NCBI GenBank assembly: GCA_003134785.1
Contig: PLCN01000021.1
Location: 193,784-257,783 of the forward strand
Direction of reading: 5' to 3'
DNA from: Spartobacteria bacterium
Lineage (GTDB): Bacteria; Verrucomicrobiota; Verrucomicrobiia; Chthoniobacterales; UBA10450
DNA length: 64,000 nt
Shown: positions 16,765 through 53,537 of the stretch, in pieces
Position numbering within the stretch: position 1 is the stretch's first letter
How the letters are laid out: each line of letters starts with the position of its first letter
The notes under the pieces: generated by a model
The model's input: the letters and a program-made list of their open reading frames with translations, nothing else
Told to the model about the DNA's origin: nothing
Databases searched by the model: none
Position numbers and translations under genes: made by a program

Positions 16765-19185
16765 TCATTCCGCACGGAGCGCGACCATCGGATCGACTTT
16801 CATGGCGCGACGGGCGGGAATGTAACTCGCCAGCAAGGCAGCCATGCCTAACAAGAGGACGACGCTCGCGTAAGTGAAGATGTCGTTCGCGCTCACGCCA
16901 TAGAGCAGGCTCGCGAGTAGGCGCGTGCCGGCGAACGCGGCCAGCAAGCCAATGGTAAGACCGACGGCCACGACGGTGAGACTTTGCCGAAGAATCATTC
17001 CGAGCATCTCGCCGCGTTGCGCGCCAAGCGCGATGCGGATGCCTATCTCGCGCGTGCGTTGCGCGACGCTGTAGGCGATCACGCCGTAGATTCCGATCGC
17101 CGCGAGAATCATCGCCACGCCGGCGAAGACGCCCAGCAACATCATGTTGAAGCGGGGCTGCGCGAGGTGCTTCGAGAGCATCGAGGTCAGCGGCTTCAGT
17201 TGCGCGACGTAAACGTCGGGATCGATCTCGGTCACCGCCCGGCGGACGGAGGTCTGCATTCCACTTAAATTAGCGCTCGTTCGGCGCAATGTGATCCAGA
17301 GCCGACGATTCGGCGCCTGCGCGAACGGTTGATACATTTCCGGGCGAGGAATTTCGCCGAGCTCTTCGTGTTTGGTGTCACCGACCACGCCGATCACCTC
17401 CATCGGAAAATCGCCCTGATCGCCGCGATCGAGCACAACATGCTGGCCGATCGGATTGACGCCGGGGAAAAATCGCTTAACGAAGGCTTCGTTGATCAAG
17501 GCGACGTTGCCTGACTTTTCGGTGTCGCGCGCATCGAAGTCGCGCCCGTTTCGCAACGGAATTTTCATCGACCTGAAATACCCGGGCGCGACTGCAAGAT
17601 GTGAGGCGTCGGGACGATTGCCGGGCGCGATCGGCGGTTGTTCCGCGATGTAGAAACTGGAATCGCTGTCGTTGTCGCTGAAGGGAAGTGGGTTCGCGCC
17701 GCCGACAATTTCCACCCCGGGAATCGCCGCGAGCTTGGGCAAAAGTTGATCGTAAAAACGCCGCTGTTGATCCGGCTCCGGATATTTCAAGCGGGGCACG
17801 ATCTGGTCGAGGACGAGGACACCGGAGGAATCGAAGCCCGGATTCGACGCGCGCAGATTGAAGAAACTTTTGATCAACAACCCCGCGCCAGCCAGAAGCA
17901 GGAGTGACAGCGAAACCTGCGAGACGACGAGGAGCGCGCGGACGCGCGTGCCGTGCAATCCGCCGGTTGAACCTTTCGAGCCTTGCTGGAGCGCCTCGTT
18001 CAAATTGCTGCGCGAAGTTTGCAGCGCCGGGATTAATCCGAAGACCAGCGTGCTGACAATCGCGAGGCCGAAGGTAAAAAAGCAGACGCCAGTATTGATG
18101 TGAATGTTAGCGAGACGCGGGACATCACGCGGCCCGATCACGCTGAGCACATCGACGCCCCACCATGCGAGGAGCAAGCCACCCGCGCCGCCGAGTAACG
18201 CGAGGACCAGGCTTTCGGCGAGCAGTTGTCTAACGATCAATGCCCGACTCGCGCCCAGCGCGGTGCGAATTCCCAGCTCACGACTGCGCGAGGCAGCACG
18301 CGCGAGCAACAGGTTCGCGACGTTCGCGCACGCGATCAGGAGCACGAGCGCGACCGCGCCTAGCAAGACCAACAACGCGAGCCGCACACTACCGACCACA
18401 TCCTGGAGCAGCGGCACCAGACGCGCGGAGCGATCGGTATTCGTTTCCGGATATTGTTTCTCCAGGCGCGCCGCGATCGATTTCAATTCCGCCTCCGCCT
18501 GCTTCAGCGCCACGTCCGGTGGCAAACGGCCGATCAATTTCAGGAAATGCGAACCGCGCCGCGGCACTTCTGTCGGCACCAGCGGCTCAAGGGGCATGAT
18601 GAAATCCGTCTTCTCCGCGTGCACCGGAAAGTTCCAACCCGGCGGCATGATGCCGAGCACCGTATAGCTCTTGCCGACGAGATTGACCTGCTGTCCGACG
18701 ATGTTGCGATTGGAAGCGAAGGCACTTTGCCAGAGTTCGTAGGTGAACAAGACCACCGGCGGCGCGCCGATTTTCGCTTCCTCCGCCGTGAAACCGCGGC
18801 CGAGCATCGGCGGCACGCCGAGGACATCGAAGAGCTCCGCAGTGGTCGCGACTCCAGAAAGTTCCTGCGCGTCGCCGACGCCGTTCAACACCGTGCCGGC
18901 GCTGGTGAAGGCTGCGAGCGCGGCGAAGCTGCGGCTCTGATCCTTGTAGTCGGCGAAATCGGGAAACGAATCGGTTTGCCGATCGTTCGGAGCAGTCGAC
19001 GAATCTCCCCAGAGCATCACGAGCTGGCCCGGATTCTGGAACGGCAGCGGCTGCAGCAAAACGGTGTCGACCACACTGAAGATGGCGCTGTTCGCGCCGA
19101 TGCCGAGCGCGAGGGTGAGGACAGCAATGCAGGTAAAACCCGGCGCCTTGATCAGCATTCGGAAGGCGAATCGGAAATCGTTCAC
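16765..19185 (-). CDS. Duplicated orphan ABC permease (ADOP copy 8), GTG start
   Basis: 806 residues. The start that matches the family opening [17 protein letters not shown] is a GTG at 19185. First coupling helix [20 protein letters not shown]; second [20 protein letters not shown]; tail [10 protein letters not shown]. Helices are at about 18-40, 268-292, 322-345, 372-395, 418-442, 692-715, 742-765 and 772-795. Family B hairpins flank the gene on both sides, so it is probably transcribed alone. Among the copies it keeps the most canonical MacB-like spacing, with a second periplasmic core of about 240 residues. Confidence 0.9.
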
Positions 19186-19196
19186 GGCGTTTCCTT

Positions 19197-19257
19197 TTGT
19201 AGGGCGTTTCTGTGAAACGCCTTCCTTCCTCTGGCGTCTGACACAGACGCCCTACAA
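19197..19257. repeat. 61-bp double-hairpin repeat, family B, copy 3
   Basis: Third copy of the TTGTAGGGCGT...ACGCCCTACAA element with both inner hairpins intact. It lies between permease copies 8 and 9, 12 bases upstream of the GTG start of copy 8, so it could also form in the 5' end of that transcript. Confidence 0.88.
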
Positions 19258-19285
19258 TTCGGGTTTCGCAGCGATTTCATGGCTG

Positions 19286-21763
19286 TCATTCGGCCCGGAG
19301 CACCACTATCGGATCGACGCTGGCGGCACGACGCGCCGGGAGCAGGCACGCGATCAGTGAGACCATCGTCATCAATGCTGCGGTACCGGCAAAGGTGGCG
19401 AGATGAAGCGCCGGGACGTCGAAGAGAACGCTCTGCATCGCTCTTCCTGCGATCCACGCGCCGATCAAACCGAGGATGGTTCCGGCGGCGAGAAGGCGCA
19501 AGCCTAACGAGAGGAATTGGGCAGCAATCTGATGCCGTTGCGCGCCCACGGCCATCCGTATCCCAATCTCGCGATTGCGTTGGGCGACCGCATAACTCAA
19601 AACTCCGTAGGTCCCGATCGCAGCCAGGAGGAGAGCCACACCGGCAAAGACTCCCGCCAGCAGCGCCGGCGACCGCCGCGCGATGAGACTGTCCGCGACG
19701 TGCGTCTCCATCGAGCGGATGTTGTCGATCGCCAAATCGGGATCAGCCGCGCGGACCAGTTTGCGGAGCGTCTCGCCGAATGCTTCAGGACGCTGGCTGG
19801 TGCGCGTGACCACGAAATAATAAGAGTTCTCTCGATAAGCGAACGGTACGTAAATCGCCCCCTGGCCTTGCGGCTCGGTGAGCGCCGCCTGTTTCACCCG
19901 ACCGACCACCCCGACAATCGTGAACAGTTTCGCGTCATCGGTTTCGCCGGCGTGCGTGATTTTCTGACCGAGCACGCCGCCGTTGGCATCCGTTTCGCCG
20001 GCCTGCGTGATTTTCTGGCCGACCAGGCCGCCATTGGGCCAATAATGGCGCGCAAAATCTTCATCGACGACACAGACTCGTTCCGCCTGGTGAGAATCCT
20101 CGGAGGTCAGAAACCGTCCTTCGCGCAACGGTATGCCGAGTGCAGTGAAGTAATCACCGGTGACGCCATAGGAATAATGTCCCTGCAACGACTGGCCCGC
20201 CGGCGGCACATAGCCCTTCGGGGCGGCGGCCGTTTTGCCGTTATCGCCAGTGAGCGGCATGTTCGTGATGATTCCGGCGGCGGTCACACCGGGCTGCTGG
20301 CGGATCAATTCCAGCAAGCGATCGCCCATCTCAACGCGGCGATTCTGATCGCTTTGCCACGGGATGGTGAATTCGCCGGTGAGGAGGTGATCGGACTGGA
20401 AGCCCGGAGAGACCGCCATGACTTTTTTCAGGCTCAGTCCGAGCAAGGCAGCGCCGGCCAGGAGAATGAAGGCGAGCGCGATCTGCGCGACGATGAAGCC
20501 GTGGCGGAGACGTTGCGCCGCGCGACTGACCGTGCCGCTCCGCGACTCGGATTGAAGCGCGTGGCCGAGATGACTGCTCAGGTTGAACCACGCAATCGGC
20601 AGAGCGATGACGATACCGAGAACAAGCGAGCCGATCAGACCGATTGCCGCCGTCCAGCCATCGAACTCAATCCGCGCGCCGAGCGGCAGGCGGCCCGCCC
20701 CGAGAATTTCGAGTAACCGCGTTCCCCACGCTCCGGCGACGAGTCCGAGCAATCCGCCGCTCGCGGTCAACGCCACGGTCTCAATCATGACCTGCCCCAC
20801 GATCTGCCGCCGGCTGGCCCCCATCGATTGACGGATTGCCATTTCTTTCGCGCGTCCGCTCGCGCGGATCAGAAGCAGGTTCACCAAATTGACCGCGCCG
20901 ATGAGGAGCAGAAAAAACACGCCAGCCTGCAGGAGAAGAAGCGTCGGACGAATGGAGCGAACGTGATCCGCATGCAGCGAAACCACCGGCGAACGGAAAC
21001 CGGCCTCCGCCATCATTTTCGCCTCCGGGTTGTCTTTTTCGACGGTGGTATTGTGCGCGTCGATCTGTGCCTGCGCTTCCGCGATCGTGGCGCCCGCCTT
21101 CAAACGCGCGATCATGTGTGTGGCGCCGCCGCCGGAGTGACGCGCTTTTGCGGAACGCTGTTCCTCGCTGGATTTCATCGAGACAAAGAGGCGCGCCTCG
21201 GACGAAAGAAAGCGAAACCCAGGAGGCAGGACGCCAACGATCTCCCTGGGGATGCCATTAATCCGGGTTTCGCGGCCCAGAACGTTTGGATCGGAATTAA
21301 AACGCTCGCGCCAGAAGGCGTCCGTCAGGATAACGACGTTCTTCTGCTGAATCCATTCTTCCTCGGTGAAGCTGCGGCCGAGCGCGGGCCTCACCCCGAG
21401 GGTGACGAAGAAATCCGGTGAGATGCGGATGACTCCCATCTGCTCGGTCGAGCCCGGTTCGCCGACGACTTCGCTGCGTTCCATATAAATGGAAAGGCTC
21501 GATAAGGCCGGAATATTGCCGCGGCGCTCGTAGTAGTTGGTGATCGACGAGCCGTCATTTTCGACACCTGCTTTCGGATAGGTGTTGTAAATACTGACGA
21601 GGCGGTCGGCGTCGGGAAATGGAAGCGGACGGAGGAGAATGGAATTGATCACCGCGAAGATGGCGAGGTTCGCCCCGAGACAGATCGCAATCGTTGCGAG
21701 CGCGGTCAGCGTGAAGGCCGGAGCTTTGCGTAGTTGGCGAAGGGCGTAGCGGAGATTGTTCAT
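19286..21763 (-). CDS. Duplicated orphan ABC permease (ADOP copy 9) with internal 17-residue duplication
   Basis: 825 residues from ATG 21763 (opening [17 protein letters not shown]); an in-frame TTG two codons upstream is less likely. First coupling helix EMAIRQSMGASRRQIVGQVM; second REIGIRMAVGAQRHQIAAQF; tail VDPIVVLRAE. In the second periplasmic core the segment GLVGQKITQAGETDANG is followed at once by a near copy, GVLGQKITHAGETDD. This tandem 17-residue duplication comes from a 51-base DNA repeat at 19941-20042; other copies have a single unit here (GKRI...). Copy 10 starts a pair with it: the stop of copy 10 would lie 9 bases upstream. Confidence 0.9.
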   Translation of the reverse strand: MNNLRYALRQLRKAPAFTLTALATIAICLGANLAIFAVINSILLRPLPFPDADRLVSIYNTYPKAGVENDGSSITNYYERRGNIPALSSLSIYMERSEVVGEPGSTEQMGVIRISPDFFVTLGVRPALGRSFTEEEWIQQKNVVILTDAFWRERFNSDPNVLGRETRINGIPREIVGVLPPGFRFLSSEARLFVSMKSSEEQRSAKARHSGGGATHMIARLKAGATIAEAQAQIDAHNTTVEKDNPEAKMMAEAGFRSPVVSLHADHVRSIRPTLLLLQAGVFFLLLIGAVNLVNLLLIRASGRAKEMAIRQSMGASRRQIVGQVMIETVALTASGGLLGLVAGAWGTRLLEILGAGRLPLGARIEFDGWTAAIGLIGSLVLGIVIALPIAWFNLSSHLGHALQSESRSGTVSRAAQRLRHGFIVAQIALAFILLAGAALLGLSLKKVMAVSPGFQSDHLLTGEFTIPWQSDQNRRVEMGDRLLELIRQQPGVTAAGIITNMPLTGDNGKTAAAPKGYVPPAGQSLQGHYSYGVTGDYFTALGIPLREGRFLTSEDSHQAERVCVVDEDFARHYWPNGGLVGQKITQAGETDANGGVLGQKITHAGETDDAKLFTIVGVVGRVKQAALTEPQGQGAIYVPFAYRENSYYFVVTRTSQRPEAFGETLRKLVRAADPDLAIDNIRSMETHVADSLIARRSPALLAGVFAGVALLLAAIGTYGVLSYAVAQRNREIGIRMAVGAQRHQIAAQFLSLGLRLLAAGTILGLIGAWIAGRAMQSVLFDVPALHLATFAGTAALMTMVSLIACLLPARRAASVDPIVVLRAE
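19941..20042. repeat. 51-bp tandem duplication inside permease copy 9
   Basis: Two adjacent 51-base units starting at 19941 and 19992 (GTTTCGCCGGCGTGCGTGAT and GTTTCGCCGGCCTGCGTGAT) differ at a handful of positions. The length is a multiple of three, so the frame is kept. Confidence 0.85.
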
Positions 21764-41508: not shown

Positions 41509-41966
41509 CACGTTTCCTGATCTTCGTTCGAGTGAGAAAGGAACGCCGAGATTTCGTACATCTGCCGGGTCAGGTTTTCTCCGATCGGATCGAGATAACG
41601 CGCGAGCTCTTCAGGCACCTTGCCGTAGCCCTGCAACGAACGGCTGTTCAACTCGGCCACGTTTTCCCAAAGGATTGTCGCCTGCCCGTTGATGAGTTGT
41701 GACGTGACCGGACGGCTCGGCTCGAGCTGGAGATCGTCGCGCAAACGGACGATCAACTGCCGGACGGCGGCGCTCTTGCTTCGCAGATTTTTTTTCTCCG
41801 AAGGAGAAAGTGTATCTCGCTGTTGATACATGACGCCGGCGCGCAGCTGTCCCTCGATCCAGCCGTCCCATTCGCACAGCGCCTTATCCACCAGTTGCAA
41901 CACAATCGAAATGCTGCGGCGGTGATTGTCGCTCAGTTCGATCGAGGGACGGGTGGATTTCTTCAC
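41508..41966 (-). CDS. Unknown protein in the fluoride-riboswitch operon
   Basis: 152 residues. The start is a GTG at 41966 that overlaps the TGA of the antiporter gene (GTGA). A longer frame to 42701 merely shadows the antiporter. The product is soluble and mostly helical: RRSISIVLQLVDKALCEWDG, an RSKSAAVRQLIVRLRDDLQL helix and a C-terminal LTRQMYEISAFLSHSNE. No motif is recognised. Coupling to the antiporter suggests a cytoplasmic accessory protein. Confidence 0.68.
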   Translation of the reverse strand: MKKSTRPSIELSDNHRRSISIVLQLVDKALCEWDGWIEGQLRAGVMYQQRDTLSPSEKKNLRSKSAAVRQLIVRLRDDLQLEPSRPVTSQLINGQATILWENVAELNSRSLQGYGKVPEELARYLDPIGENLTRQMYEISAFLSHSNEDQET

Positions 41967-43153
41967 GTGTCTTCCACTGATTGAATGGCGAGCCGGCGAC
42001 GATAAAGGCGACCCCACGCGTGCATCGCAGTTTTCGTTGGCTGGAAAAATTTCTGCGCGAAGAGCGTCGGCACAAAGGCGCTCAAAATAACCACGGTCAC
42101 GAGGATGGTGTATTGACGCTGGTCGATGATCTTGTTCTGGAACCCGAAGAGCGCGGAAATCGTGCCGAAGGTCAGGCCGGTCGCCATGAGCAGCGTGGTG
42201 TAGGCGGCTTCGCGCTGGCTCATGAAGTGCATTCGTGCCAGCGGCCAAACCCCGACGATCTTGGTCAGCATTTTCAGCAGGAGCAGAACTGCGACGATAG
42301 TGATCGCCGGCCAGAGTGCCGGAAGTGAAACGAACAAGCCTGCCCGGATGAAATAGAAGGGCGTGAACATGGCGAACGCGATGCTGCGCATGCGATGAAC
42401 GAGAGTCTTGTCCCGGAGGAATACGCCGGCGACGACCAGTCCAACCAGGTAGGCCGGCAAGACGGCTTCGCTCTTTGCGGCGGTGGCGAGGCCGCCCAGG
42501 AAAAAGAGAACGAAGAAAATGAACTTCACTTCCGGCTCGCTGACCCTCGACGCGCCAAGGCGATCGATGATCGATTTCGTCCATCCCGGCATGAACCAGA
42601 GCACGACGCACATGACTACGACGAAGACGAGCAGCCAGACGTTGAAGTTTGCGAACAGTCCGCCGAGCGCGAGGACTGTTCCGAAATCGGTGATGAAACA
42701 CGCGGCGAGAATCATCTTCCCCATCGCGGTGTCGCTATATCCGCCTTCAATCATCACGGCGTAAACGACTGCCACTGAAGTCGTCGAGAGCGCGATGCCC
42801 GCGATCTGCGCCTGATGAAGGGACCAGCCCAGGACAAATTGCGCGAAGAGCCACACAACGGCGAAAGGGACCGCGAACGAGATGAAGCCGATCAGTGCGC
42901 TTGCCCGCAGGTTTTCCTTGAGCGAGCGCGGATCGATTTCAGCGCCGGCGAGAAAGGTCAACACGCCGCTGCCCAGCATCGCGAGAAAGCCAATCCACTC
43001 GTTGTTCGCCTGGAGATGAAACACATTTCCGGCGAAGACACCGACGAGGATCTCGATCAGCGCGACGGAGATCCCGGTCCAGATTGAAACCAGACTCGCA
43101 GCGAGGGCAAGGCCCATCCAAACCGCCGCGACAAACCAGATATTTTGAAACAT
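41963..43153 (-). CDS. CPA-type cation/proton (or fluoride-linked) antiporter
   Basis: 396 residues with about 12 helices. Typical CPA2 segments: LVGVFAGNVFHLQANNEW, FLAGAEIDPRSLKENLRAS, the half-broken helix IALSTTSVAVVYAVM and AACFITDFGTVLALG. The latter has Thr155-Asp156 where electrogenic members have Asp-Asp. GLATAAKSEAVLPAYLVGLV and FYFIRAGLFVSLPALW are the matching second-half motifs. CPA antiporters are known members of fluoride-riboswitch regulons. Whether this one exports fluoride or corrects pH or Na+ is not known. The gene begins three bases after the DUF190 gene. Confidence 0.85.
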   Translation of the reverse strand: MFQNIWFVAAVWMGLALAASLVSIWTGISVALIEILVGVFAGNVFHLQANNEWIGFLAMLGSGVLTFLAGAEIDPRSLKENLRASALIGFISFAVPFAVVWLFAQFVLGWSLHQAQIAGIALSTTSVAVVYAVMIEGGYSDTAMGKMILAACFITDFGTVLALGGLFANFNVWLLVFVVVMCVVLWFMPGWTKSIIDRLGASRVSEPEVKFIFFVLFFLGGLATAAKSEAVLPAYLVGLVVAGVFLRDKTLVHRMRSIAFAMFTPFYFIRAGLFVSLPALWPAITIVAVLLLLKMLTKIVGVWPLARMHFMSQREAAYTTLLMATGLTFGTISALFGFQNKIIDQRQYTILVTVVILSAFVPTLFAQKFFQPTKTAMHAWGRLYRRRLAIQSVEDT

Positions 43154-43156
43154 GGG

Positions 43157-43504
43157 TTACTCCGGATCCGGCCGCTCGGGGCGGTAATGAATGACTTTGA
43201 TTTTCTCCAGCGTGACCAGACCGCCGCCAATCATCTCCTCGAGGTCCGGCAGAAAACCGTTCACCTTTTCCTCGCTGTCTACGATCTCGATCACAATCGG
43301 GAGGTCCATCGAAAGCCGCAAAATCTTGGCGGTGTGAATCCGGCTCGCGGCGCCGAAGCCCATCGGGCCGCGCAAGACGGTGGCGCCCGCAAGATGACGT
43401 TCGCGTGCTTTCATGACGATGGCTTCGTAGAGCGGTCCGTGTTTCCAGCGATCGCTTTCGCCGATGAAAATACGCAACAGCATTGCGTCTTTTGGGATTT
43501 GCAT
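43157..43504 (-). CDS. DUF190-family protein
   Basis: 115 residues from ATG 43504. Segments typical of DUF190: AMLLRIFIGESDRWKHGPLY, ARERHLAGATVLRGPMGFG and LSMDLPIVIEIVDSEEKV. This is a PII-like ferredoxin fold frequently encoded next to crcB, where it may sense or tune the fluoride channel (function inferred from context in many genomes). It begins eight bases after crcB and ends three bases before the antiporter. Confidence 0.86.
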   Translation of the reverse strand: MQIPKDAMLLRIFIGESDRWKHGPLYEAIVMKARERHLAGATVLRGPMGFGAASRIHTAKILRLSMDLPIVIEIVDSEEKVNGFLPDLEEMIGGGLVTLEKIKVIHYRPERPDPE

Positions 43505-43512
43505 GGTCTCTC

Positions 43513-43902
43513 CTAGGGTTTGTTGATCATCCAGACTGAGAAGTGTCCGAGCCAGACGGCGAGCAGACAGAAAGCAAAAGACGCGAGAGCGTTTGCTCCG
43601 GCCCGCAGCCATTCGCCGTCCTGAGCGAGCGAGAGTGTTTGCAAGCTGAATGAAGAGAACGTGGTGTAACCGCCGCACACGCCAATCATGAAGAATTCGC
43701 GAAACGAAGGGCTCACCAACCATCGCCCTTCGGGATCGGTCAGTGCGGCGAAGAGTCCGATAAGAAACGAGCCGGTAACGTTTACCGTAAGAGTCCCGTA
43801 AGGAAAGGTCTGCCCGAAGCGTTGCGCTATGGCACCCGAGATCCAGAAACGCGCGGCGCTTCCTATCGCACCACCAAGGCTGACCCAAAGATAACTGAGC
43901 AT
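43513..43902 (-). CDS. crcB: Fluoride channel CrcB/Fluc
   Basis: 129 residues from ATG 43902, seven bases after an AGGAG. Four helices with all Fluc hallmarks: GGAIGSAARFWIS, YGTLTVNVTGSFLIGLF (conserved Asn in the pore) and GVCGGYTTFSSFSLQTL (the TTFSS phenylalanine ladder). Fluc channels form antiparallel dimers that let fluoride out of the cell. It is the first gene behind the fluoride riboswitch at 43909-44004. Confidence 0.92.
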   Translation of the reverse strand: MLSYLWVSLGGAIGSAARFWISGAIAQRFGQTFPYGTLTVNVTGSFLIGLFAALTDPEGRWLVSPSFREFFMIGVCGGYTTFSSFSLQTLSLAQDGEWLRAGANALASFAFCLLAVWLGHFSVWMINKP

Positions 43903-43908
43903 AATAAA

Positions 43909-44004
43909 ACTCCTGCCGCGCATCGCTGCGCTAAACAGGAGTCATTAGCTCTGAACCGGTCAGGCGGTTTTCCCGAATCTCGGAAAGGCAAACTCCATTG
44001 CCTG
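43909..44004 (-). promoter_or_regulatory. Fluoride riboswitch (crcB RNA motif) with Shine-Dalgarno-masking platform
   Basis: Read on the minus strand: AGGCAATGGAGTTTGCCT (the first stem with the conserved GGNGATGG-like loop), then AAAACCGCCTGACCGGTT, and GCTAATGACTCCTG closing the pseudoknot. This is the characteristic order of the crcB/fluoride motif. The 3' ACTCCTG is exactly complementary to CAGGAGT at 43909-43915, which contains the ribosome-binding site of crcB. Without fluoride the two should pair and block translation; with fluoride the GACTCCTG is held in the aptamer. The stem is followed by TTTTATT, so partial transcription control is also possible. Confidence 0.88.
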
Positions 44005-44009
44005 ATTCG

Positions 44010-44037
44010 AAGTTAGTGAGCGTAGGTTTGTCGTCAA
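44010..44037 (-). promoter_or_regulatory. Candidate promoter of the fluoride operon
   Basis: Minus strand TTGACG (44037-44032), a 16-base spacer, and TAACTT (44015-44010). It would start transcription just at the 5' end of the riboswitch. Confidence 0.42.
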
Positions 44038-44097: not shown

Positions 44098-45030
44098 CTA
44101 ATTCAACATCGCGGCAGGCCGCCCGCTGGCCGAAGGACATCGAACCTTCGCCGTTTCCCACTCCGAAAAATATTGGGAGAGGCCGCGCGCGAACTGGCGC
44201 GGGCGTTCCGAATAAAAGCGCTCACCGAGCACGATGGCGGTGCGTTCGAGTTCTTTTTCCCGGGACTCAATCAGCGCGTTGAGAAGACGGTCGCCCTGTT
44301 TCCGGGCGGGACCGATCGAACAGAGCCGCTCGGCAACAAAAGCAAGATCGTGAACCTGGCCGAGATATTGGCCGATCGATTTCAATTCGTCGTTCAGCTC
44401 TTTGAAGATCGCCGGCGCCAGCGGACGCAAAAGCCGCAGTTGATACCAAAGCTCCTTCGCCCGCTTGCGAAAGGTGTGCAGATTTTTCGTGTTCGTTTTT
44501 TTGATCGCGGTCTTTAGCGCTTTGCGGCCGCGCTTATAGGTCTTCTGCACGTTTTCCCGCAACCGTTTGCAACTGAGATCTTCCAGCGGCCATTCGCGGA
44601 CGCGATCGAGGGTCTGGGTCAATCGCTCTTCCGCTTCCTGGGGCCATTCCGAAAACGCCGCCAGAAAACTATCGAGCTCGAACGCGAGCAACTCTTCCGT
44701 TTCTTGAAAGCTGCGGCGCTTTCCGCGCGCGAATTCGCGCAACTGCCGCACGGTTTGCAACCGGACTTCCGCATCGCGGACTTCGGAAATGAGCTGACCC
44801 ACCTTCCCGAGACAGCGGTCTTCGCGTTTCCAAACGTCCGGCTTAATTTCGCCGCAAGCGAGGCGAAGAGCGGCTCGCGCTTTCTTCAAATGCTTCCGTG
44901 TTTCATGCACGGGCGAGCCTTTGCCGTTTTGTTCCGCCTTGCTCGCGCGGATCGCGCCTTCGATCTGGTGGCAGACGATGCGGCGAAGTCCGCCGCCGAG
45001 CGTTTCATCCTGTTGCAATTGGTAGCTCAT
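44098..45030 (-). CDS. CHAD-domain protein
   Basis: 310 residues from ATG 45030 (a 26-residue upstream extension overlaps the CYTH gene and looks non-coding). The two four-helix repeats of the CHAD fold are visible, starting with HETRKHLKKARAALRLA and later NLHTFRKRAKELWYQLRL. Both have the conserved His and basic residues that bind inorganic polyphosphate. CHAD proteins attach to polyphosphate granules. The CYTH gene lies 14 bases upstream on the same strand, the usual partner arrangement. Confidence 0.86.
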   Translation of the reverse strand: MSYQLQQDETLGGGLRRIVCHQIEGAIRASKAEQNGKGSPVHETRKHLKKARAALRLACGEIKPDVWKREDRCLGKVGQLISEVRDAEVRLQTVRQLREFARGKRRSFQETEELLAFELDSFLAAFSEWPQEAEERLTQTLDRVREWPLEDLSCKRLRENVQKTYKRGRKALKTAIKKTNTKNLHTFRKRAKELWYQLRLLRPLAPAIFKELNDELKSIGQYLGQVHDLAFVAERLCSIGPARKQGDRLLNALIESREKELERTAIVLGERFYSERPRQFARGLSQYFSEWETAKVRCPSASGRPAAMLN

Positions 45031-45044
45031 GGTTTTCCGGCGCG

Positions 45045-45521
45045 TCAGTCGTGCGCGAGCGCGACGTTGCTGTATTTCGGTTTGCCGGTCACATCGCGGC
45101 CGATCCAATCCGGCGGCTCAAACGCGGCACAGCTTCTTAGGTTATCGAATTCCACTTCAGCCACAACGAGGCCATCGTGCCGGCCGCGATAAATATCGAT
45201 CTCGACCGTGTGTCTTTTCCACGGCACGTCGTAGCGGACCTTGGTTAATCTGCGGCCGGCGGTCGCAGGCCAGAGCGCATTGAATTGCTCCACGCTCAGC
45301 CGGATCTCGCGCTCTTCGCGCTCGCCCTTTGTGCCCTGCTTGTAGGTGAGCGAGCGCACGGACCCCTTCTTGCGCAGACGAACCTGAAGACCGCCGCGCC
45401 CGACGGCGAGATAGCCCTGCTCGATCGTGTCGTGCGGATATTTCTTCAGGTTCGGCGGAAACCGTTTCAGCAAAAATTTCCGCTCGATCTCCCGTGAAGA
45501 TGGCTTTTTTGACGCGCTCAT
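45045..45521 (-). CDS. CYTH-domain protein (triphosphate tunnel metalloenzyme)
   Basis: 158 residues from ATG 45521; longer in-frame starts exist but lack the family opening. The signature EIERKFLL is at residues 11-18. Tunnel residues follow in LQVRLRKKGSVRSLTYKQG, ERDExE-like EREEREIRLS, VRYDVPWKRHTVEIDIYRG and VVAEVEFDN. Members hydrolyse inorganic triphosphate or short polyphosphate with Mg2+ or Mn2+. It is cotranscribed with CHAD and divergent from the exported phosphoesterase at 45740. The shared 218-base intergenic region contains the candidate Pho boxes. Confidence 0.86.
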   Translation of the reverse strand: MSASKKPSSREIERKFLLKRFPPNLKKYPHDTIEQGYLAVGRGGLQVRLRKKGSVRSLTYKQGTKGEREEREIRLSVEQFNALWPATAGRRLTKVRYDVPWKRHTVEIDIYRGRHDGLVVAEVEFDNLRSCAAFEPPDWIGRDVTGKPKYSNVALAHD

Positions 45522-45610
45522 GTTGGCCAGTCTTATTTTCGTGAAGGGAAAAAACATTGCCGAGACTTTTTTGTTTCGGTTCGCGAACAAGGCCCGTCAA
45601 AAATTTTTGT

Positions 45611-45669
45611 GTGACAATTAGATGGCACATGGCTCGCACGCTCCTTTGTATGTGACGAACAGGTGGCAG
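45611..45669. promoter_or_regulatory. Two candidate Pho boxes between CYTH/CHAD and phosphoesterase genes
   Basis: GTGACAA-TTAG-ATGGCAC (45611-45628) and GTGACGA-ACAG-GTGGCAG (45652-45669) share a 7-4-7 layout. Reverse-complemented they read GTGCCAT-N4-TTGTCAC and CTGCCAC-N4-TCGTCAC, close to the PhoB direct repeat CTGTCAT-N4-CTGTCAT. Similarity, position and neighbouring gene functions support the call; the exact consensus in this phylum is not known to me. Confidence 0.45.
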
Positions 45670-45739
45670 TGAAGTTAAGTTTATGTAACAACAGCGCCAC
45701 TCCTCTAGACGCCGCGGCGCGAGCGGTCTTTGCTCGGAT

Positions 45740-47065
45740 ATGATCGCGCCTCTTCGTATTTTCCTGGCGGTTTCGTTGCTCGGCTCTTGCTTCACGGCTG
45801 CGCGGACGCACGCGCAAAACAGTCCGTTGCCGCCTCCTGAAGCCGCTGGATTCGAGCACGTCATCGTGGTGATGATGGAGAACCGGTCGTTCGATCATTT
45901 TCTCGGATGGATGCCGGGAGCGAACGGCAAGCAAAGCGGGCTGACTTATCTCGACAGCAAGGGCGGCGTTCACCCCACCCATTCACTCGCGCCGGATTAC
46001 CAGGGCTGCGGGTTTCTCGATCCCGGCCATTCGTACAGTGACGGGCGCGTGCAATACAACAACGGCGGCGCGGATGGCTGGCTGCTCGACGGCTCGGACG
46101 AGAGCGACACGAATCCGAAACAGGCCAACGACATCTATGCCATCGGTTATTATGGAGCGGCCGACCTCCCGTTTCTCAGCGCGGCGGGATCGGCGTTCAC
46201 GGTCTGCGACAATTATTTCGCGGGAATTCTTTCCGCGACGTACCCGAACCGCTTTTACATGCACGCCGCGCAAACGGACCGGCTTTCCAACACGAGTGCG
46301 ACCTCGACACTCCCGACCATCTGGAGCCGGCTGGAGGAAAAGGGATTGAGCCGGCGATATTATTTCAGTGACGCTCCATTCCTCGCGCTTTGGGGAACGC
46401 GCTACGCCGATATCTCGAAACCGTTTTCGCAATTCCTGGCCGACGCCGCGGCCGGCACGCTTCCGAACGTGGCCTACATCGACCCGCGTTTCGAGGACGA
46501 AGGGAGTGGAACTTCAGGCGACGATCATCCGCACGCCGACATCCGAAACGGCGAAGTCTTTCTGAATCAGATTTATGATGCTCTGCGCCAGAGTCCGAAC
46601 TGGTCGAAGACTGTCCTCGTCATCAATTACGATGAATGGGGCGGGTTCTACGACCACGTGCTGCCGCCGCTCGCCCCGATCCCGACCGCGTCCGCTGCGG
46701 CGGGCGATACAGATGGGCGCCTCGGTTTCCGCGTTCCCTGTCTCGTCATCTCGCCTTACGCCCGGCGCAATTTTATCGCGCACGGCCAGTACGATCACAC
46801 GTCGATTCTGAAAATGATCGAGTGGCGGTTTGGGCTGCCGCCGCTCAGCGTGCGCGACGGGACCGCAAATAATCTCGCGGAGGTGCTCGATTTTTCCGCA
46901 GCGAGCTCGACCGCGCCGGTCTTCAATGTTCCGGGCGGCCCGTTCAATCCCGCGTGTCCGCCTGCGTCCCTGGTGGCGAACGATCCCGAGGCCGAGGAAT
47001 GGTCGGAAAACCTCGACAAGCTGAGAACGATGGCGCGCCAGAATGGCTTCAAAGGAGTGAAGTGA
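45740..47065 (+). CDS. Exported phosphoesterase (phospholipase C / acid phosphatase family)
   Basis: 441 residues with signal peptide (LRIFLAVSLLGSCFTAARTH). The phosphoesterase opening FEHVIVVMMENRSFDHFLG carries the metal-binding Glu-Asn of the AcpA/PLC family. Further family blocks: TVCDNYFAGILSATYPNRFY, WSRLEEKGLSRRYYFSD, VLVINYDEWGGFYDHVLPP and GFRVPCLVISPYARRNFI. Such enzymes release phosphate from phospholipids or phosphomonoesters outside the cytoplasm. The TGA stop overlaps the ATG of the next phosphoesterase by one base (TGATG). Candidate Pho boxes upstream suggest induction by phosphate shortage. Confidence 0.88.
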   Translation: MIAPLRIFLAVSLLGSCFTAARTHAQNSPLPPPEAAGFEHVIVVMMENRSFDHFLGWMPGANGKQSGLTYLDSKGGVHPTHSLAPDYQGCGFLDPGHSYSDGRVQYNNGGADGWLLDGSDESDTNPKQANDIYAIGYYGAADLPFLSAAGSAFTVCDNYFAGILSATYPNRFYMHAAQTDRLSNTSATSTLPTIWSRLEEKGLSRRYYFSDAPFLALWGTRYADISKPFSQFLADAAAGTLPNVAYIDPRFEDEGSGTSGDDHPHADIRNGEVFLNQIYDALRQSPNWSKTVLVINYDEWGGFYDHVLPPLAPIPTASAAAGDTDGRLGFRVPCLVISPYARRNFIAHGQYDHTSILKMIEWRFGLPPLSVRDGTANNLAEVLDFSAASSTAPVFNVPGGPFNPACPPASLVANDPEAEEWSENLDKLRTMARQNGFKGVK

Positions 47066-49512
47066 TGAAACGCGCATTGCTTCTTATTCTCGTCACTCTC
47101 TCTTCGTTCACGGTGGCTTCGCAGGTCAGCGCGCTGCCGCGGCCGGACCACATTGTCGTCGTGATCATGGAAAATCATTCCTACGGCCAGATAATCGGGG
47201 CGGCGGAGGCGCCAAACATCACCGCGCTCGCGGCGGAAGGCGCGAACTTCGTCAATGCGCCGACCGATCCAGTCGGCGCGACCAGCGGCTCGCACTCATT
47301 GAGACATCCGAGCCAGCCAAATTACCTCGAGCTCTTTTCGGGGAACAACCAAGGCACACTGCAGGACGGACACCCGGGCACGATCTCCGAACCGCTTTCC
47401 TCGCCACCGCCATTCGCTACGCCGAATCTTGCCGCGTCCTTGATCGCCTCCGGCTTCACGTTCGCCACTTACTCGCAGAATCTTCCGTCGGTTGGATTCG
47501 ACGGCGATAGTTACTCGACTGATCCCGCCTTGACCCAGTACCAGCGGAAGCACAATCCCGTCACGAACTGGCAGGCGGCGGACGCGCCGGCAAATCATCA
47601 TGTACCGCTTTCGACCAACCAGCCGTTCATCGCGTTTCCGACCGACGCGGCCGGTTACGCTGCGCTCCCTGCCATTTCCTTCGTGGTGCCGGACCAGCAG
47701 AACGACATGCACGACGGCTCGATCGCGCAGGCCGATGCGTGGCTGAAAAGCAACATCCTCGACGGCTACTATCAGTGGGCCAAGACGCACAACAGTTTGC
47801 TCATCGTGACGTTCGATGAAGACGGCGACAACACGCTGACGAATCAGATCCCGACGATTTTTGCCGGGGCGACGATCAAGCCCGGCAATTATTTTGAATC
47901 GAACATCAATCCGCCCGACATGCGCACGCCGGATGGACTCATCACGCCCACCGGCACGGCCATGACGCACTACAACGTTTTGCGCACGCTCGAAGACATG
48001 TACGGCCTTGCGCCCATTGGCGGTTCTGTGAACACGCCGTCGATCACCGACATCTTCCTCACCATTCCCACGACCGGACCGGTGGTGGTGCCGAACAATC
48101 TCAGCACGACGCAAGGCGACACCGGCAATTTGTTCCCGCTCTTTTCCATGAAGCCAATTCGTTACCAGCAGGTCTTCGAGAAGTCGCAGTTCAGCCGGTT
48201 CGCGGCCGGCGGTGAGATGATCGATACGATCGGCTTTCGGGCGCACGCGCCCGGAGTTCCCTTCAGCGGTTTCGTGGCGCAATTGCAGGTGAACCTTTCA
48301 ACCACGAGCAAGAATCCCGACGGGTTGAGCTCAACTTTTGCCGACAACATCGGACCGAATGACACTCAGGTTTTTTCCGGACCTATTGCCGTGTCGGCAA
48401 ACAACTCCACTTCGCCCGGCGCAGTGAACACCTTCGATATCGTGATTAGATTGAGCACGCCGTTTCTTTACAATCCCGCCGGCGGCAACCTGCTCATCGA
48501 CATTCGAAATTCGCAGGGTGGCTTTGAAATTCCTCCGCTCGATCAAGAGATCGACGCGACCAACGCGTTGGGCGATGCGGTCTCGCGCGTTTACAATGAC
48601 GGCGACGTGAATGCCACTACCGCTGGGCAATCGGGAACGATGGCGGAAAACGATACGGTCGGACTCGTGACGAGCTTCGGGACCATGGCGAATCCCGCGC
48701 CTTCACCAAGCCCGACGCCGACACCGCACTCATCATTATTGAACAGCTCGACGCGGCTGCGCACTGGGAGCGGGGATGATGTGATGATCGGCGGATTCAT
48801 CATCGGCGGACAAGTGAAGAAGAAGGTAATCGTTCGCGGGATCGGCCCGTCGCTCAAGATAAACGGAACGCCAATTCCAAACACGCTTCAGGATCCGGTG
48901 ATCGAATTAGACAAAAGCGACGGCACTGTCCTGGCGGCGAACGATGACTGGAAGACGACGCAACAATCCGAACTCGAAGCGAGCGGCCTCGCGCCCACAG
49001 ACGATCGGGAATCAGCGATCTCTATCTCACTCGATCCCGGCAATTATACCGTGGTGCTTTCGGGAAAGGGAGGCTCCAGTGGGATCGGTGTGGTGGAAGC
49101 GTACGATGTCGAGCAGGGGTCGGCCGCGATGCTGCTCAACCTCTCGACCCGCGGTCAGGTCCAGACCGGCGACAACGTGATGATCGGCGGCGTGATCATC
49201 GGCGGGCCTGATTATGCGCGGGTGATTTTCCGTGGGCTCGGGCCATCGATCTCCATCAATGGTGTCCCCCTTCCCGGCCGGCTGGCCGATCCGACGCTGG
49301 AATTGCATGACGAAAATGGCGCGCCTTTGGCCTTTGATGATGACTGGAAAGACAGTCAGCGGACTGAGATCGAGCAGAGCGGTCTTGCGCCGTCCGACGA
49401 TCACGAAGCGGCGATCATCGGGAGCTTCGCGCCTGGGCAATACACCGTTATTCTTCGCGGCAAGAATGACACTACCGGCATCGGCTTGTTCGAAGCCTAC
49501 AAGCTGAATTAG
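47065..49512 (+). CDS. Exported phosphoesterase with two C-terminal beta-repeat modules
   Basis: 815 residues from ATG 47065 (the open frame back to 46954 shadows the upstream gene). After a signal peptide (MKRALLLILVTLSSFTVASQ) comes a phosphoesterase domain, from HIVVVIMENHSYGQIIG to about residue 340, with NSLLIVTFDEDGDNTL supplying metal ligands. A middle region of about 200 residues is unassigned beta-rich sequence. Two tandem copies of a roughly 125-residue module follow a SPSPTPTP linker. They contain VIVRGIGPSLKINGTPIP and VIFRGLGPSISINGVPLP, ending VVEAYDVEQ and LFEAYKLN. These modules are a feature I associate with Verrucomicrobiota exported proteins. Confidence 0.86.
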   Translation: MKRALLLILVTLSSFTVASQVSALPRPDHIVVVIMENHSYGQIIGAAEAPNITALAAEGANFVNAPTDPVGATSGSHSLRHPSQPNYLELFSGNNQGTLQDGHPGTISEPLSSPPPFATPNLAASLIASGFTFATYSQNLPSVGFDGDSYSTDPALTQYQRKHNPVTNWQAADAPANHHVPLSTNQPFIAFPTDAAGYAALPAISFVVPDQQNDMHDGSIAQADAWLKSNILDGYYQWAKTHNSLLIVTFDEDGDNTLTNQIPTIFAGATIKPGNYFESNINPPDMRTPDGLITPTGTAMTHYNVLRTLEDMYGLAPIGGSVNTPSITDIFLTIPTTGPVVVPNNLSTTQGDTGNLFPLFSMKPIRYQQVFEKSQFSRFAAGGEMIDTIGFRAHAPGVPFSGFVAQLQVNLSTTSKNPDGLSSTFADNIGPNDTQVFSGPIAVSANNSTSPGAVNTFDIVIRLSTPFLYNPAGGNLLIDIRNSQGGFEIPPLDQEIDATNALGDAVSRVYNDGDVNATTAGQSGTMAENDTVGLVTSFGTMANPAPSPSPTPTPHSSLLNSSTRLRTGSGDDVMIGGFIIGGQVKKKVIVRGIGPSLKINGTPIPNTLQDPVIELDKSDGTVLAANDDWKTTQQSELEASGLAPTDDRESAISISLDPGNYTVVLSGKGGSSGIGVVEAYDVEQGSAAMLLNLSTRGQVQTGDNVMIGGVIIGGPDYARVIFRGLGPSISINGVPLPGRLADPTLELHDENGAPLAFDDDWKDSQRTEIEQSGLAPSDDHEAAIIGSFAPGQYTVILRGKNDTTGIGLFEAYKLN

Positions 49513-49541
49513 GTGGCGGCAGGGTCTGCGGTCCCGCTACC
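49512..49541. repeat. Hairpin repeat at the end of the phosphoesterase gene
   Basis: GGTGGCGGCAGGGTCTGCGG followed by TCCCGCTACC forms an imperfect palindrome that begins at the last base of the TAG stop. It has no T-run and may stabilise or end the transcript. Confidence 0.5.
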
Positions 49542-49569
49542 CGCTGTCATGGACGAACGCGAGACTCGG

Positions 49570-49887
49570 TCAGGGCAGAGCCGCCAAAGCTTCGACCAGC
49601 GCCGGAAGCGGCCAGGCGGAGATCAAGACGATGACAGCGAAGAAGAACAATTCCGCGAAGAAACTCGTTGGCGTTTCCTTTTTCCAATACTCTCTGCTGA
49701 TATCGCGAAAAGACGGGCGTTTACTCGAGGACGGAATGTTCCGTCGTGAATTGGCGTCGTCGGAATGTCGCCGTCCCGCTGAGTAGAAATTGCAGTCCAT
49801 CGCGGGCCGATGCGGCGTGTGCCGGTGCCTGATGCGGTCGTGTCGGCGGCTTCCTTGAGCGGCGTTGATTTGAGGTATTGGCTTCAT
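49570..49887 (-). CDS. Possible small membrane protein
   Basis: 105 residues from ATG 49887, or 76 from the ATG at 49800. Only the C-terminal part looks like protein: a charged FRDISREYWKKETPTS segment followed by one membrane helix (FFAELFFFAVIVLISAWPLP). The N-terminal half is basic and unremarkable. It is convergent with the phosphoesterase gene. No Shine-Dalgarno sequence is seen at either start, so the call is uncertain. Confidence 0.45.
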   Translation of the reverse strand: MKPIPQINAAQGSRRHDRIRHRHTPHRPAMDCNFYSAGRRHSDDANSRRNIPSSSKRPSFRDISREYWKKETPTSFFAELFFFAVIVLISAWPLPALVEALAALP

Positions 49888-50063
49888 GGCTGCCTGATAA
49901 TGCGTCCACGGAATTTAGTCAGGTTACGAAAAGTGAAGTTTGGGTGACGAACATGTCACGCCCAATTGGTCGTTAGGCCCAGAACACTTTCCACGGGCAG
50001 ATCTTCTACGCGCTGGGTCTTTCGAAAACCTCGGCCGTCGGGGTCGAAGAGAAATTCACCAGA

Positions 50064-50081
50064 TTGTCACTTGGCCGTCAT
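50064..50081 (+). promoter_or_regulatory. Candidate Pho box upstream of pstS-like gene
   Basis: TTGTCAC-TTGG-CCGTCAT has the 7-4-7 direct-repeat layout of a Pho box (CTGTCAT-N4-CTGTCAT), 56 bases before the start codon. A further related word, GTGACGAACATGTCACG, lies at 49944-49960. Confidence 0.48.
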
Positions 50082-50136
50082 CGAAAGGTGATGGACTGGA
50101 CATACGCAGTCTCATCTCCATCCAAACGCTTAAACT

Positions 50137-50955
50137 ATGAAAACAAAATTCACTACTCTGCTCTCCGCTTTCGCTCTCATTTGCATTTCTGTCACCGCGC
50201 AGGCCGAACGCCTCGTCATTAAAGGATCAGACACGCTCGGCGCGAAACTGGTCCCGCAGTTGGCCGAGCAATTCAAAACGCAAAATTCCGACGCGACTTT
50301 CGACATCGCGGCCGAGGGATCGACCACCGGTTTCGCGGCGCTGATCGATAGCACCGCGCAGATCGGCATGGCCAGCCGGCCCGCGAAGACTGAGGAGATC
50401 GCTGCAGCGAAGGCAAAGGGCGTCACGTTGAAGGAGACAATCGTCGCCTATGACGGCGTGGCGGTGATCGTGAACGCGGCGAACCCGGTCAAGGGCCTGA
50501 CGAAGAAGCAGGTCGAGCAGATCTTCACCGGCGAAGTGTCCGATTGGAGCGCAGTAGGCGGTTCGGGCGGTTCGATTTCCATCTACACCCGCAACACTTC
50601 GTCGGGGACGTATTCCGAATTCAAGGAACTCGCGATGAAGAAACGCGATTACGCGCCCTCCGCGCAAAAGATGGCGGGCAACGAGCAGATCGCCGCGGAA
50701 GTGGGAAAGAATCCGAATGGCGTCGGCTATGTCGGGCTCGCCTACGTCAAGGCGAAGGGAATCAAAGTGGTCTCGATCGATAGCGCGATGCCGTCAGTCG
50801 AGAGCGTGCAGAGCAAAAGTTATCCCTACGCGCGGCCGACCTTTTTTTATACGAACGGCGAACCGGCAGGGCTGGTGAAGGCGTTCGTTGATTTTACCCT
50901 GAGCCCGGCCGGGCAGAAAATCGTGGCTGATGTTGGTTTCGTTCCGATTCACTAG
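50137..50955 (+). CDS. pstS: Phosphate-binding protein PstS-like
   Basis: 272 residues with signal peptide (MKTKFTTLLSAFALICISVTAQA). The ligand-binding segments of the PstS family are visible: VIKGSDTLGAKLVPQLAEQF, AAEGSTTGFAALIDSTAQIG with the conserved Ser-Thr-Thr-Gly, DGVAVIVNAANPVKGLTKKQ, WSAVGGSGGSISIYTRNTSS with GTYSEF, and NPNGVGYVGLAYV. It is a periplasmic phosphate receptor. No pstCAB or phoU genes follow, so it is an orphan or extra copy. A terminator-like hairpin follows. Confidence 0.86.
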   Translation: MKTKFTTLLSAFALICISVTAQAERLVIKGSDTLGAKLVPQLAEQFKTQNSDATFDIAAEGSTTGFAALIDSTAQIGMASRPAKTEEIAAAKAKGVTLKETIVAYDGVAVIVNAANPVKGLTKKQVEQIFTGEVSDWSAVGGSGGSISIYTRNTSSGTYSEFKELAMKKRDYAPSAQKMAGNEQIAAEVGKNPNGVGYVGLAYVKAKGIKVVSIDSAMPSVESVQSKSYPYARPTFFYTNGEPAGLVKAFVDFTLSPAGQKIVADVGFVPIH

Positions 50956-52222: not shown

Positions 52223-52566
52223 CCCTGATTCTTATTCGGCACCAACAATTGCAGGTCCTCGATGAGCGAATCGATTTTGCGCAAATCTTTGCGCCGGCCT
52301 TTCTCGGGTTTCAATTTGCGTTTGCGGACATGGATCATCAGGTCGCGCAGTTGATGCAGACGTTCGCGCGATAATTCTTCGGCCGGTTTCAGTGAGCCGA
52401 GCGCCGCGCGGCTCTCCGCCAGGTCGATCTCCAGCCGAGCTGCGTAGGCCCGGACCGTCTGGCGCAAATCGTGTCGAAGTTTCTCCAGCTCCGACTCGAG
52501 CACTTTCACCGGCGAGGTGTCCGTGGATTTCGATCGTGCGCGTCGCTTGTATTTGATTGATGTCAT
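52219..52566 (-). CDS. Small coiled-coil protein of unknown function
   Basis: 115 residues from ATG 52566. A very basic N-terminus (TSIKYKRRARSKSTD) is followed by two long helices (VLESELEKLRHDLRQTVRAY and EELSRERLHQLRDLMIHVRK), a lysine-rich stretch and a last helix KIDSLIEDLQLLV. It overlaps the LpxH-like gene upstream by four bases (ATGA) and the L,D-transpeptidase frame downstream. This envelope-gene context suggests coexpression; function unknown. Confidence 0.68.
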   Translation of the reverse strand: MTSIKYKRRARSKSTDTSPVKVLESELEKLRHDLRQTVRAYAARLEIDLAESRAALGSLKPAEELSRERLHQLRDLMIHVRKRKLKPEKGRRKDLRKIDSLIEDLQLLVPNKNQG

Positions 52567-53408
52567 AATGAGGCTCCTGCGAGTTCTGGTTTCTTGATGA
52601 GGGCGGGCGAAGGAGTTTGATACGGATTGAAATTGAGCAGCTCGATTTCGCCGTCGAAATTTTCCACCAGCGCCGAACAGGTCTCGACCCAATCGCCGCA
52701 GTTGTAGTAGGTGATGGCGCCGATTTGCCGGATGCCGGCGCTGTGAATATGTCCGCAAAGCACGGCATCGACCCCGTGGCTCTCGGCGTAACGCACGATC
52801 GCCGTTTCGAATTCGCCGATGAAATTCACAGCGTCCTTGACCCGCTTCTTGGCGTAAGCGCTCAGCGACCAGTAGCCGAGACCGAACCGACGGCGGACGA
52901 AATTGATCAGCGGATTGAGCGCGAGCAAAAACTGGTAGCCGAGGTCGCCGGCGAAGGCGAGCCAGCGCGCGTTTTGCACAACGGTATCCAGCTCGTGGCC
53001 ATGAATAACGAGAATGCGCCGGCCATCGGCAGTCATGTGCCTGGCCTGTTTCTCGATCGCGATGTGGCCGTAGTAGCCGCAGAAACCGCCCACGAATTCA
53101 TCGTGATTGCCCGGGATGTAAACGATGCGCGTGCCTTTGCGCGCCTTGCGCAAAAGTTTTTGGATGACGTCGTTGTGCTGTTGCGGCCAATAAATTCCGC
53201 GCCGCATCTGCCAGGTATCGATGAGATCGCCGACGATGTAGAGCGTTTCCACCTCGTAATCGCGGAGGAAATCGAGCAGGGGCGCGGCCTTGCTGCCGCG
53301 CGTGCCGAGATGCACATCGGAGATCCAGGCCGTGCGTAAGCGACGCGGCGCCGGCGCGGTGACGACGCGAAGATTTCGAAACCGAGCAGTTGAGTCGAGC
53401 CTCCCCAT
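52563..53408 (-). CDS. LpxH-like metallophosphoesterase (UDP-2,3-diacylglucosamine diphosphatase family)
   Basis: 281 residues from ATG 53408 (MGRLDST); a start 12 codons earlier is possible. The five calcineurin-type metal motifs are in order: WISDVHLG, VGDLIDTW, PGNHDE, VIHGHE and CGHIHSAG. NYNCGDWVE-like YYNCGDWVETCSALVE is typical of the LpxH-related group annotated in lipid A biosynthesis. The order and the GDW segment favour a UDP-diacylglucosamine pyrophosphatase-like role over a DNA repair exonuclease. The downstream gene overlaps by four bases. Confidence 0.82.
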   Translation of the reverse strand: MGRLDSTARFRNLRVVTAPAPRRLRTAWISDVHLGTRGSKAAPLLDFLRDYEVETLYIVGDLIDTWQMRRGIYWPQQHNDVIQKLLRKARKGTRIVYIPGNHDEFVGGFCGYYGHIAIEKQARHMTADGRRILVIHGHELDTVVQNARWLAFAGDLGYQFLLALNPLINFVRRRFGLGYWSLSAYAKKRVKDAVNFIGEFETAIVRYAESHGVDAVLCGHIHSAGIRQIGAITYYNCGDWVETCSALVENFDGEIELLNFNPYQTPSPALIKKPELAGASL

Positions 53409-53537
53409 GCCTGGAAAATAGCAGGCGCGCGGTGAGGCCGACAAAGTGAGTTTTGTAACGTTTGTGTGGCGAAGACTCGATGCGCTCGGCGGCGCGTCAA
53501 CGGCATCGCCAATATCGTGTCGCCCATCGCCGCTGCT

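Follow-up and report, generated by a model that had tools for sequence, protein, structure and literature searches.

Our analysis points to a phosphate-starvation gene cluster in a 64,000-nucleotide stretch of a Chthoniobacterales genome (hereafter the window, C4:193784-257783; the genome comprises 4.39 Mb in 25 contigs), which holds genes for CYTH and CHAD domain proteins, two predicted exported phosphoesterases, a PstS-family protein and a metallophosphoesterase. This cluster is probably switched on as a whole by phosphate starvation via PhoB and would represent a detached part of the Pho locus, a reading to which we assign, from the sequence evidence, a probability of roughly 0.78. When phosphate becomes scarce, PhoR would activate PhoB, the gene of which lies about 50 kb away on this contig, and PhoB would then bind tandem 11-bp repeats, each made of a 7-bp half-site and a 4-bp spacer, and turn on four transcripts. 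The pstS transcript would serve in the capture of inorganic phosphate (Pi); that of CYTH-CHAD would allow CHAD to bind polyphosphate and CYTH to split short chains, triphosphate first, yielding Pi; that of the two exported phosphoesterases would free Pi or head groups by cleaving phospholipids and other phosphoesters; that of the metallophosphoesterase may serve lipid remodelling.

Pho boxes in the cluster promoters

The initial annotation of this DNA had placed CHAD, CYTH, two exported phosphoesterases and a PstS-like protein within 44098-50955, and family models confirm these genes (Table 1). It had also described three 7-4-7 repeats, two at 45611-45669 and one at 50064-50081, the coordinates of which are exact, and had named beforehand a clade-specific Pho-box model as the comparison that could refute their assignment. 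We inspected the 200 bp before phoB, pstC and porin-pstS in this genome (G000; other G-labels denote the genomes compared and L-labels denote loci) and its relatives, 25 promoters in all, the majority of which carry tandem 7 + 4 bp units, as in the porin promoter of G007 (CTGTCAC-TTGG-CCGCCAT-ACGT-CCGTAAC). The half-site matrix was built from 41 units, picked by eye, in 16 promoters of relatives; its training used neither this genome, whose three promoters were withheld, nor any promoter of CYTH, window-type pstS, the phosphoesterases or the metallophosphoesterase. When scored, the three withheld promoters (phoB, pstC and porin) were the top-scoring sites of their locus (L003), and the three annotated repeats came 1st, 2nd and 8th among about 128,000 positions of the window. 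Tandem Pho boxes fitting a clade-specific model thus stand in the cluster promoters, including sites beyond those three that face the phosphoesterase operon, the small open reading frame (ORF) and the metallophosphoesterase gene.

Table 1. Genes and Pho-box sites of the cluster (window coordinates; scores from the clade-specific model)
Feature	Position	Strand	Evidence
CHAD-domain protein, predicted polyphosphate-binding; second gene of CYTH-CHAD operon	44098-45030	-	PF05235 E 3e-26
CYTH / triphosphate-tunnel enzyme, predicted inorganic triphosphatase	45045-45557 (alternative start 45590)	-	PF01928, phmmer vs NE1496
Phosphoesterase 1, phospholipase C / acid phosphatase family, predicted exported	45740-47065	+	PF04185 E 2e-74
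Phosphoesterase 2, predicted exported	47065-49512	+	PF04185 E 2e-31
Small ORF, hydrophobic C-terminal segment, possibly membrane protein	49570-49887	-	51% identity in G002
PstS-family phosphate-binding protein, paralogue of pst-operon PstS	50137-50955	+	TIGR02136
Calcineurin-type metallophosphoesterase, LpxH/PlcP-like	52563-53408	-	PF00149/PF12850
Pho box of CYTH-CHAD operon, then TTTGACGGG -35-like element	45611-45628	-	GTGCCAT-CTAA-TTGTCAC, score 12.92, 8th in window
Second Pho-box array upstream of CYTH, three units	45652-45680	-	45652-45669 CTGCCAC-CTGT-TCGTCAC, 2-unit score 16.80 (2nd in window), 3-unit 19.2 (1st)
Overlapping array of 11-bp units facing phosphoesterase operon	45650-45700	+	best pair 45683-45700, score 13.6; aligned with G004
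Pho-box array facing small ORF	49933-49961	-	3-unit score 17.4 (2nd in window); best pair 49944-49961, 14.53; aligned in G002
Pho-box array of pstS	50053-50092	+	50064-50081 TTGTCAC-TTGG-CCGTCAT, 2-unit score 18.05, 1st in window
Pho box of metallophosphoesterase, upstream of conserved CTTTGTC ... TGCTATTTT promoter-like sequence	53455-53472	-	score 10.8, 13th in window

The five best three-unit matches of the window all lie within the cluster, as do all but two (29713 and 30771) of the best eight pairs. Compared with 100 dinucleotide shuffles, the window has one match at or above 18.0 (mean 0.06), two at or above 16.7 (mean 0.13) and eight at or above 12.9 (mean 1.61, maximum in one shuffle 7). 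Shuffles of two intergenic pieces reached the best pair in 3/5000 and 1/5000 cases and the best triple in 0/5000 each. A consensus promoter scan did not detect the cluster promoters (2 sites against 2.9 in shuffles).

The boxes are also conserved among relatives, as judged by the best same-orientation pair within 220 bp of each start. This pair scores at least 14.1 upstream of CYTH in 6/6 genus genomes with the boxed CYTH lineage (6/9 if the CYTH genes of G001, G017 and G021, counted apart as another lineage, are added), at least 10.2 before window-type pstS in 7/8 genomes, at least 10.8 before the metallophosphoesterase in 6/6 genus genomes, 13.5-13.6 before the phosphoesterase operon in 2/2 and at least 14.5 before the small ORF in 2/2, while none of 21 control upstreams (five YkuD, six CHAD, six PstB and four NaH/CrcB) exceeds 5.4; the upstreams of divergent test genes overlap and are hence not fully independent, and the random background contains true Pho promoters. 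In 20 held-out upstreams (six CYTH, eight pstS and six metallophosphoesterase, those of the phosphoesterases and the small ORF being left out), a pair of at least 12 occurs at the 11-bp spacing in 17, in no more than three at any of the other spacings compared (7 to 25), and in reversed sequence in none. Alignment shows that the CYTH box at 45611-45628 and the TTTTGACGGG block that follows it are kept in six genomes and that the DNA farther upstream has diverged; the array at 45652-45680 is kept in place in G000 and G004 only. The metallophosphoesterase promoter alignment likewise keeps the box, ACAAAAC, CTTTGTC and TGCTATTTT.

Gene order and gene products

In this genome, phoB-phoR-pstC-pstA-pstB-phoU followed by porin-pstS occupies C4:290.9-300 kb, on the same contig as the cluster and at a distance of about 46 kb (in L003, phoB 18822-19559 and phoR 17544-18815, then pstCAB-phoU), and PhoB and PhoR are thus encoded in the same genome. 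CHAD-CYTH stands between the phoBR-pstCAB-phoU operon and pstS in 3/8 genus genomes. In G002, G004 and G007 the phoU gene at the end of the pst operon is directly convergent with CHAD. CYTH and pstS are divergently oriented in G003, G005 and G007, in G002, where the small ORF separates them, and also in G017, which belongs to another genus. Because phoU-CHAD and CYTH-pstS adjoin in these relatives, displacement of a piece of the Pho locus best accounts for the cluster. G000 and G004 are the only genomes in which both phosphoesterases stand between CYTH and pstS, homologues of phosphoesterase 1 being found in 14 of 58 genomes, and the metallophosphoesterase gene is the next one after pstS, in the same orientation, in L105, L115, L117, L118 and L127. 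Among 78 named loci with a window-type PstS, CYTH and CHAD both occur in seven (L101, L102, L103, L104, L110, L118 and L120), all from genomes already counted under G-labels, and in none of the remaining 71, Opitutaceae included. In G021, pstC and CHAD flank a broken homologue of phosphoesterase 2 (L092, 6240-7184), which ties this family to a Pho locus in another genus too.

The DNA-binding domain of PhoB is 42% identical to that of E. coli PhoB over 96 residues and retains RTVD-H-RRLRK. Direct repeats with a period of about 10-11 bp are usual in the OmpR family as a whole, and the genome has six Trans_reg_C matches, so that a different regulator of this family could bind the repeats in place of PhoB. 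The same repeat, however, precedes the genome's own phoB, pstC and porin-pstS, in a locus that contains the phoB gene itself, and the half-site matches the TGTCA type of the PhoB consensus; we consider a different regulator quite improbable.

The CHAD protein scores 93.3 bits against PF05235 (cut-off 25.6) and weakly matches the solved CHAD structure 6qv7. Its gene begins 14 bp after the CYTH stop. We chose ATG 45557 over TTG 45590 as the CYTH start, this ATG being kept in 6/6 aligned genus promoters. Against PF01928 the CYTH protein reaches 22.5 bits (E 1e-4), slightly under the cut-off of 23.2, and the Pfam CYTH model gave no match at 0.001 in this genome although the CYTH gene is present; the model is therefore insensitive for this lineage. 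The protein matches the solved CYTH protein NE1496 (2fbl, 3typ) over its whole chain (phmmer E 4e-26). We take NE1496 to be NeuTTM of Nitrosomonas europaea. The Tyr + Lys pair proposed as catalytic dyad in passages of PMC3440374 is aligned between the two, and CYTH thus resembles an inorganic triphosphatase.

The start of phosphoesterase 2 overlaps the stop of phosphoesterase 1 (TGATG), and both N-termini look like signal peptides by eye. Among solved structures, phosphoesterase 1 is closest to non-specific phospholipase C4 (NPC4, 8hav; phmmer E 8e-42 over 345 residues) and retains its ENRSFDH, PNR, DE-GGFYDHV and RVP stretches; it matches an acid phosphatase model below cut-off. The PstS-family protein passes its curated model (235.4 bits, cut-off 206.6), matches solved Pi-binding relatives and shares 76% identity with the second PstS (C4:290915-291718). 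For the metallophosphoesterase, the start was set at ATG 53408 from promoter alignments, and LpxH models match only below their cut-offs. Differences in the small ORF are distributed 33/35/50 over the three codon positions, and a weak likeness to it is also seen in G026 near pstS.

Elsewhere in the window, a fluoride riboswitch (RF01734, 42.5 bits, 43929-44011, minus strand) precedes the CrcB fluoride channel gene crcB (43513-43923), after which come a DUF190 gene (43157-43510) and a Na+/H+ exchanger gene (41963-43153, minus strand); G002 likewise has crcB and the exchanger close to its Pho locus, there on the opposite side of the metallophosphoesterase. The segment 37453-40099 (minus strand) resembles an arsenic-resistance cluster that includes an aquaglyceroporin: its successive genes encode an ArsR-type regulator, two low-molecular-weight proteins of the phosphatase/arsenate-reductase type, a major intrinsic protein and a DUF6428 protein. 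At 1469-26765 (minus strand) lie ten consecutive genes, each for a product of about 800-900 amino acids; the three that were scanned have duplicated MacB-core and FtsX permease domains, and the region forms a long tandem array of such permeases.

Reach of the probable Pho control and possible polyphosphate handling

Several observations weigh against common control of the cluster by PhoB. Six of the 25 phoB, pstC and porin promoters have no box by eye and were not used in training (phoB of G006, G007, G021 and G038, pstC of G038, and the porin of G004, whose start is uncertain), and the pstS upstream of G003 scores just 2.7. The strict 7-4-7 pattern gives 48 matches genome-wide, mostly in ORFs, and the reversed control gives 18; of the 22 listed genome matches of at least 13, 15 fall inside ORFs. 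Boxes before CYTH occur in a single lineage of a single genus, and the CYTH genes of G001, G017 and G021, which lie near pst genes with CHAD, have no same-strand box. There is no Pho box near PPK1 or PPK2 of this genome and, lastly, YgiF, a characterised CYTH protein, does not hydrolyse polyphosphate of about 65 residues according to passages of PMC3440374.

The pattern alone is unspecific, and we therefore did not extend the regulon from the genome pattern search, of which 30 of the 48 matches were taken on as loci. Its presence elsewhere, mainly inside ORFs, would also be expected if 7-4-7 matches simply arose by chance in GC-rich DNA. We rejected this explanation, which we consider extremely improbable: it is countered by the rank of the sites, the shuffles, conservation and orientation, and is strongly disfavoured by the held-out promoters as compared with the controls and by the 11-bp period.

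The boxless CYTH genes bear on whether CHAD-CYTH belongs to the regulon at all. Only pstS and the phosphoesterases might be Pho-controlled, CHAD-CYTH being a neighbour by inherited gene order with a housekeeping promoter, and the phosphoesterase operon, rather than CYTH, could be the target of the sites in the 149-bp divergent region; this view fits the CYTH-CHAD pairs that lack a same-strand box, as well as the remaining CYTH upstreams retrieved, none of which has one. Yet G002, G003, G005 and G007 have no phosphoesterase there and still keep the CYTH-facing box, and the box has the same orientation and the same -35-like element after it in 6/6 genomes, including G000 and G004. A bystander role for CHAD-CYTH is weakened by the former observation in particular; we rejected it and regard it as unlikely.

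In a tree of 21 CYTH proteins, the six boxed genes form one clade (99/97) and the other CYTH genes near pst genes fall elsewhere. No box turned up in the 14 other CYTH upstreams retrieved from the family (best 8.8) or in those of the five CYTH paralogues of the genus (best 6.3). Since other CYTH genes lack a same-strand box, Pho control of CYTH-CHAD is best read as the recruitment of one lineage within one genus. The initial annotation had proposed a local Pho regulon coupling polyphosphate handling with phosphate release and binding. Model fit, spacing and synteny support the regulon; the coupling to polyphosphate appears to narrow to this clade-specific recruitment of CHAD-CYTH, given these boxless CYTH genes and the unboxed PPK1 and PPK2.

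PPK1 and PPK2 lie a few kb apart on C25 and were rejected as further regulon members, having no box near them. The same region (105500-115500, L216) also encodes a ROK-type kinase and a SixA-like histidine phosphatase, both named by eye. A Ppx-GppA match was found in 0/8 genus genomes with a single family model that matched 10/14 control genomes and leaves absence unproven. It is possible, if rather doubtful, that in a genus without detectable Ppx/GppA a NeuTTM-like triphosphatase and CHAD under PhoB form a starvation route drawing down polyphosphate; because YgiF leaves chains of about 65 residues uncut, another enzyme would need to shorten the chains.

Known systems and implications

The arrangement resembles the Pho regulon of the E. 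coli type in having tandem half-sites of the TGTCA type, 7 bp long and separated by 4-bp spacers, before phoB, pstC, porin-pstS and pstS, and in the similar DNA-binding domain of PhoB. It differs in that several boxes stand directly upstream of a TTGAC-like -35 element and in that its members include CYTH-CHAD and PF04185 phosphoesterases. Unlike NPC4, phosphoesterase 1 is a predicted exported bacterial enzyme. PlcP, a further enzyme of comparison, has a calcineurin-type phosphoesterase fold. The plcP lipid-remodelling genes carry Pho boxes, as stated in passages of PMC4796936, and the calcineurin-type phosphoesterase gene with a Pho box found here lies beside pstS; in contrast to plcP systems, no betaine-lipid or agt gene was identified here. 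A single full-text search of the literature for a Verrucomicrobia 'Pho box' returned lipid remodelling work only.

Pho control of a CHAD gene is already established in Streptomyces lividans, where the ppk-pptA (CHAD)-nudix operon is controlled by PhoR/PhoP, according to passages of PMC8003754 that also describe CHAD domains as polyphosphate-binding. Both systems would thus place a CHAD gene under a phosphate two-component system, a prediction in the present case. The S. lividans gene stands with ppk and nudix, and those passages make no mention of CYTH, whereas here a separate CYTH enzyme lies beside pstS and phospholipase-type enzymes, and ppk is unlinked and boxless. Compared with NeuTTM, whose triphosphatase activity is predicted for the enzyme described here, a CHAD gene follows CYTH and a Pho box precedes it. 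A limited search of the literature on CHAD, CYTH, phosins and the Pho regulon turned up no report of a Pho-controlled CYTH-CHAD pair.

What role CYTH inorganic triphosphatases play in physiology is a standing question: passages of PMC3440374 ask whether cells contain inorganic triphosphate (PPPi), and put the upregulation required for YgiF to matter at no less than 20-fold. Our analysis yields a Pho-box model for a Chthoniobacterales family, and the conserved Pho box before CYTH-CHAD names a testable condition, phosphate starvation, together with a candidate set of partners. If the starvation route proposed above is true, it would give a CYTH triphosphatase a defined physiological role.

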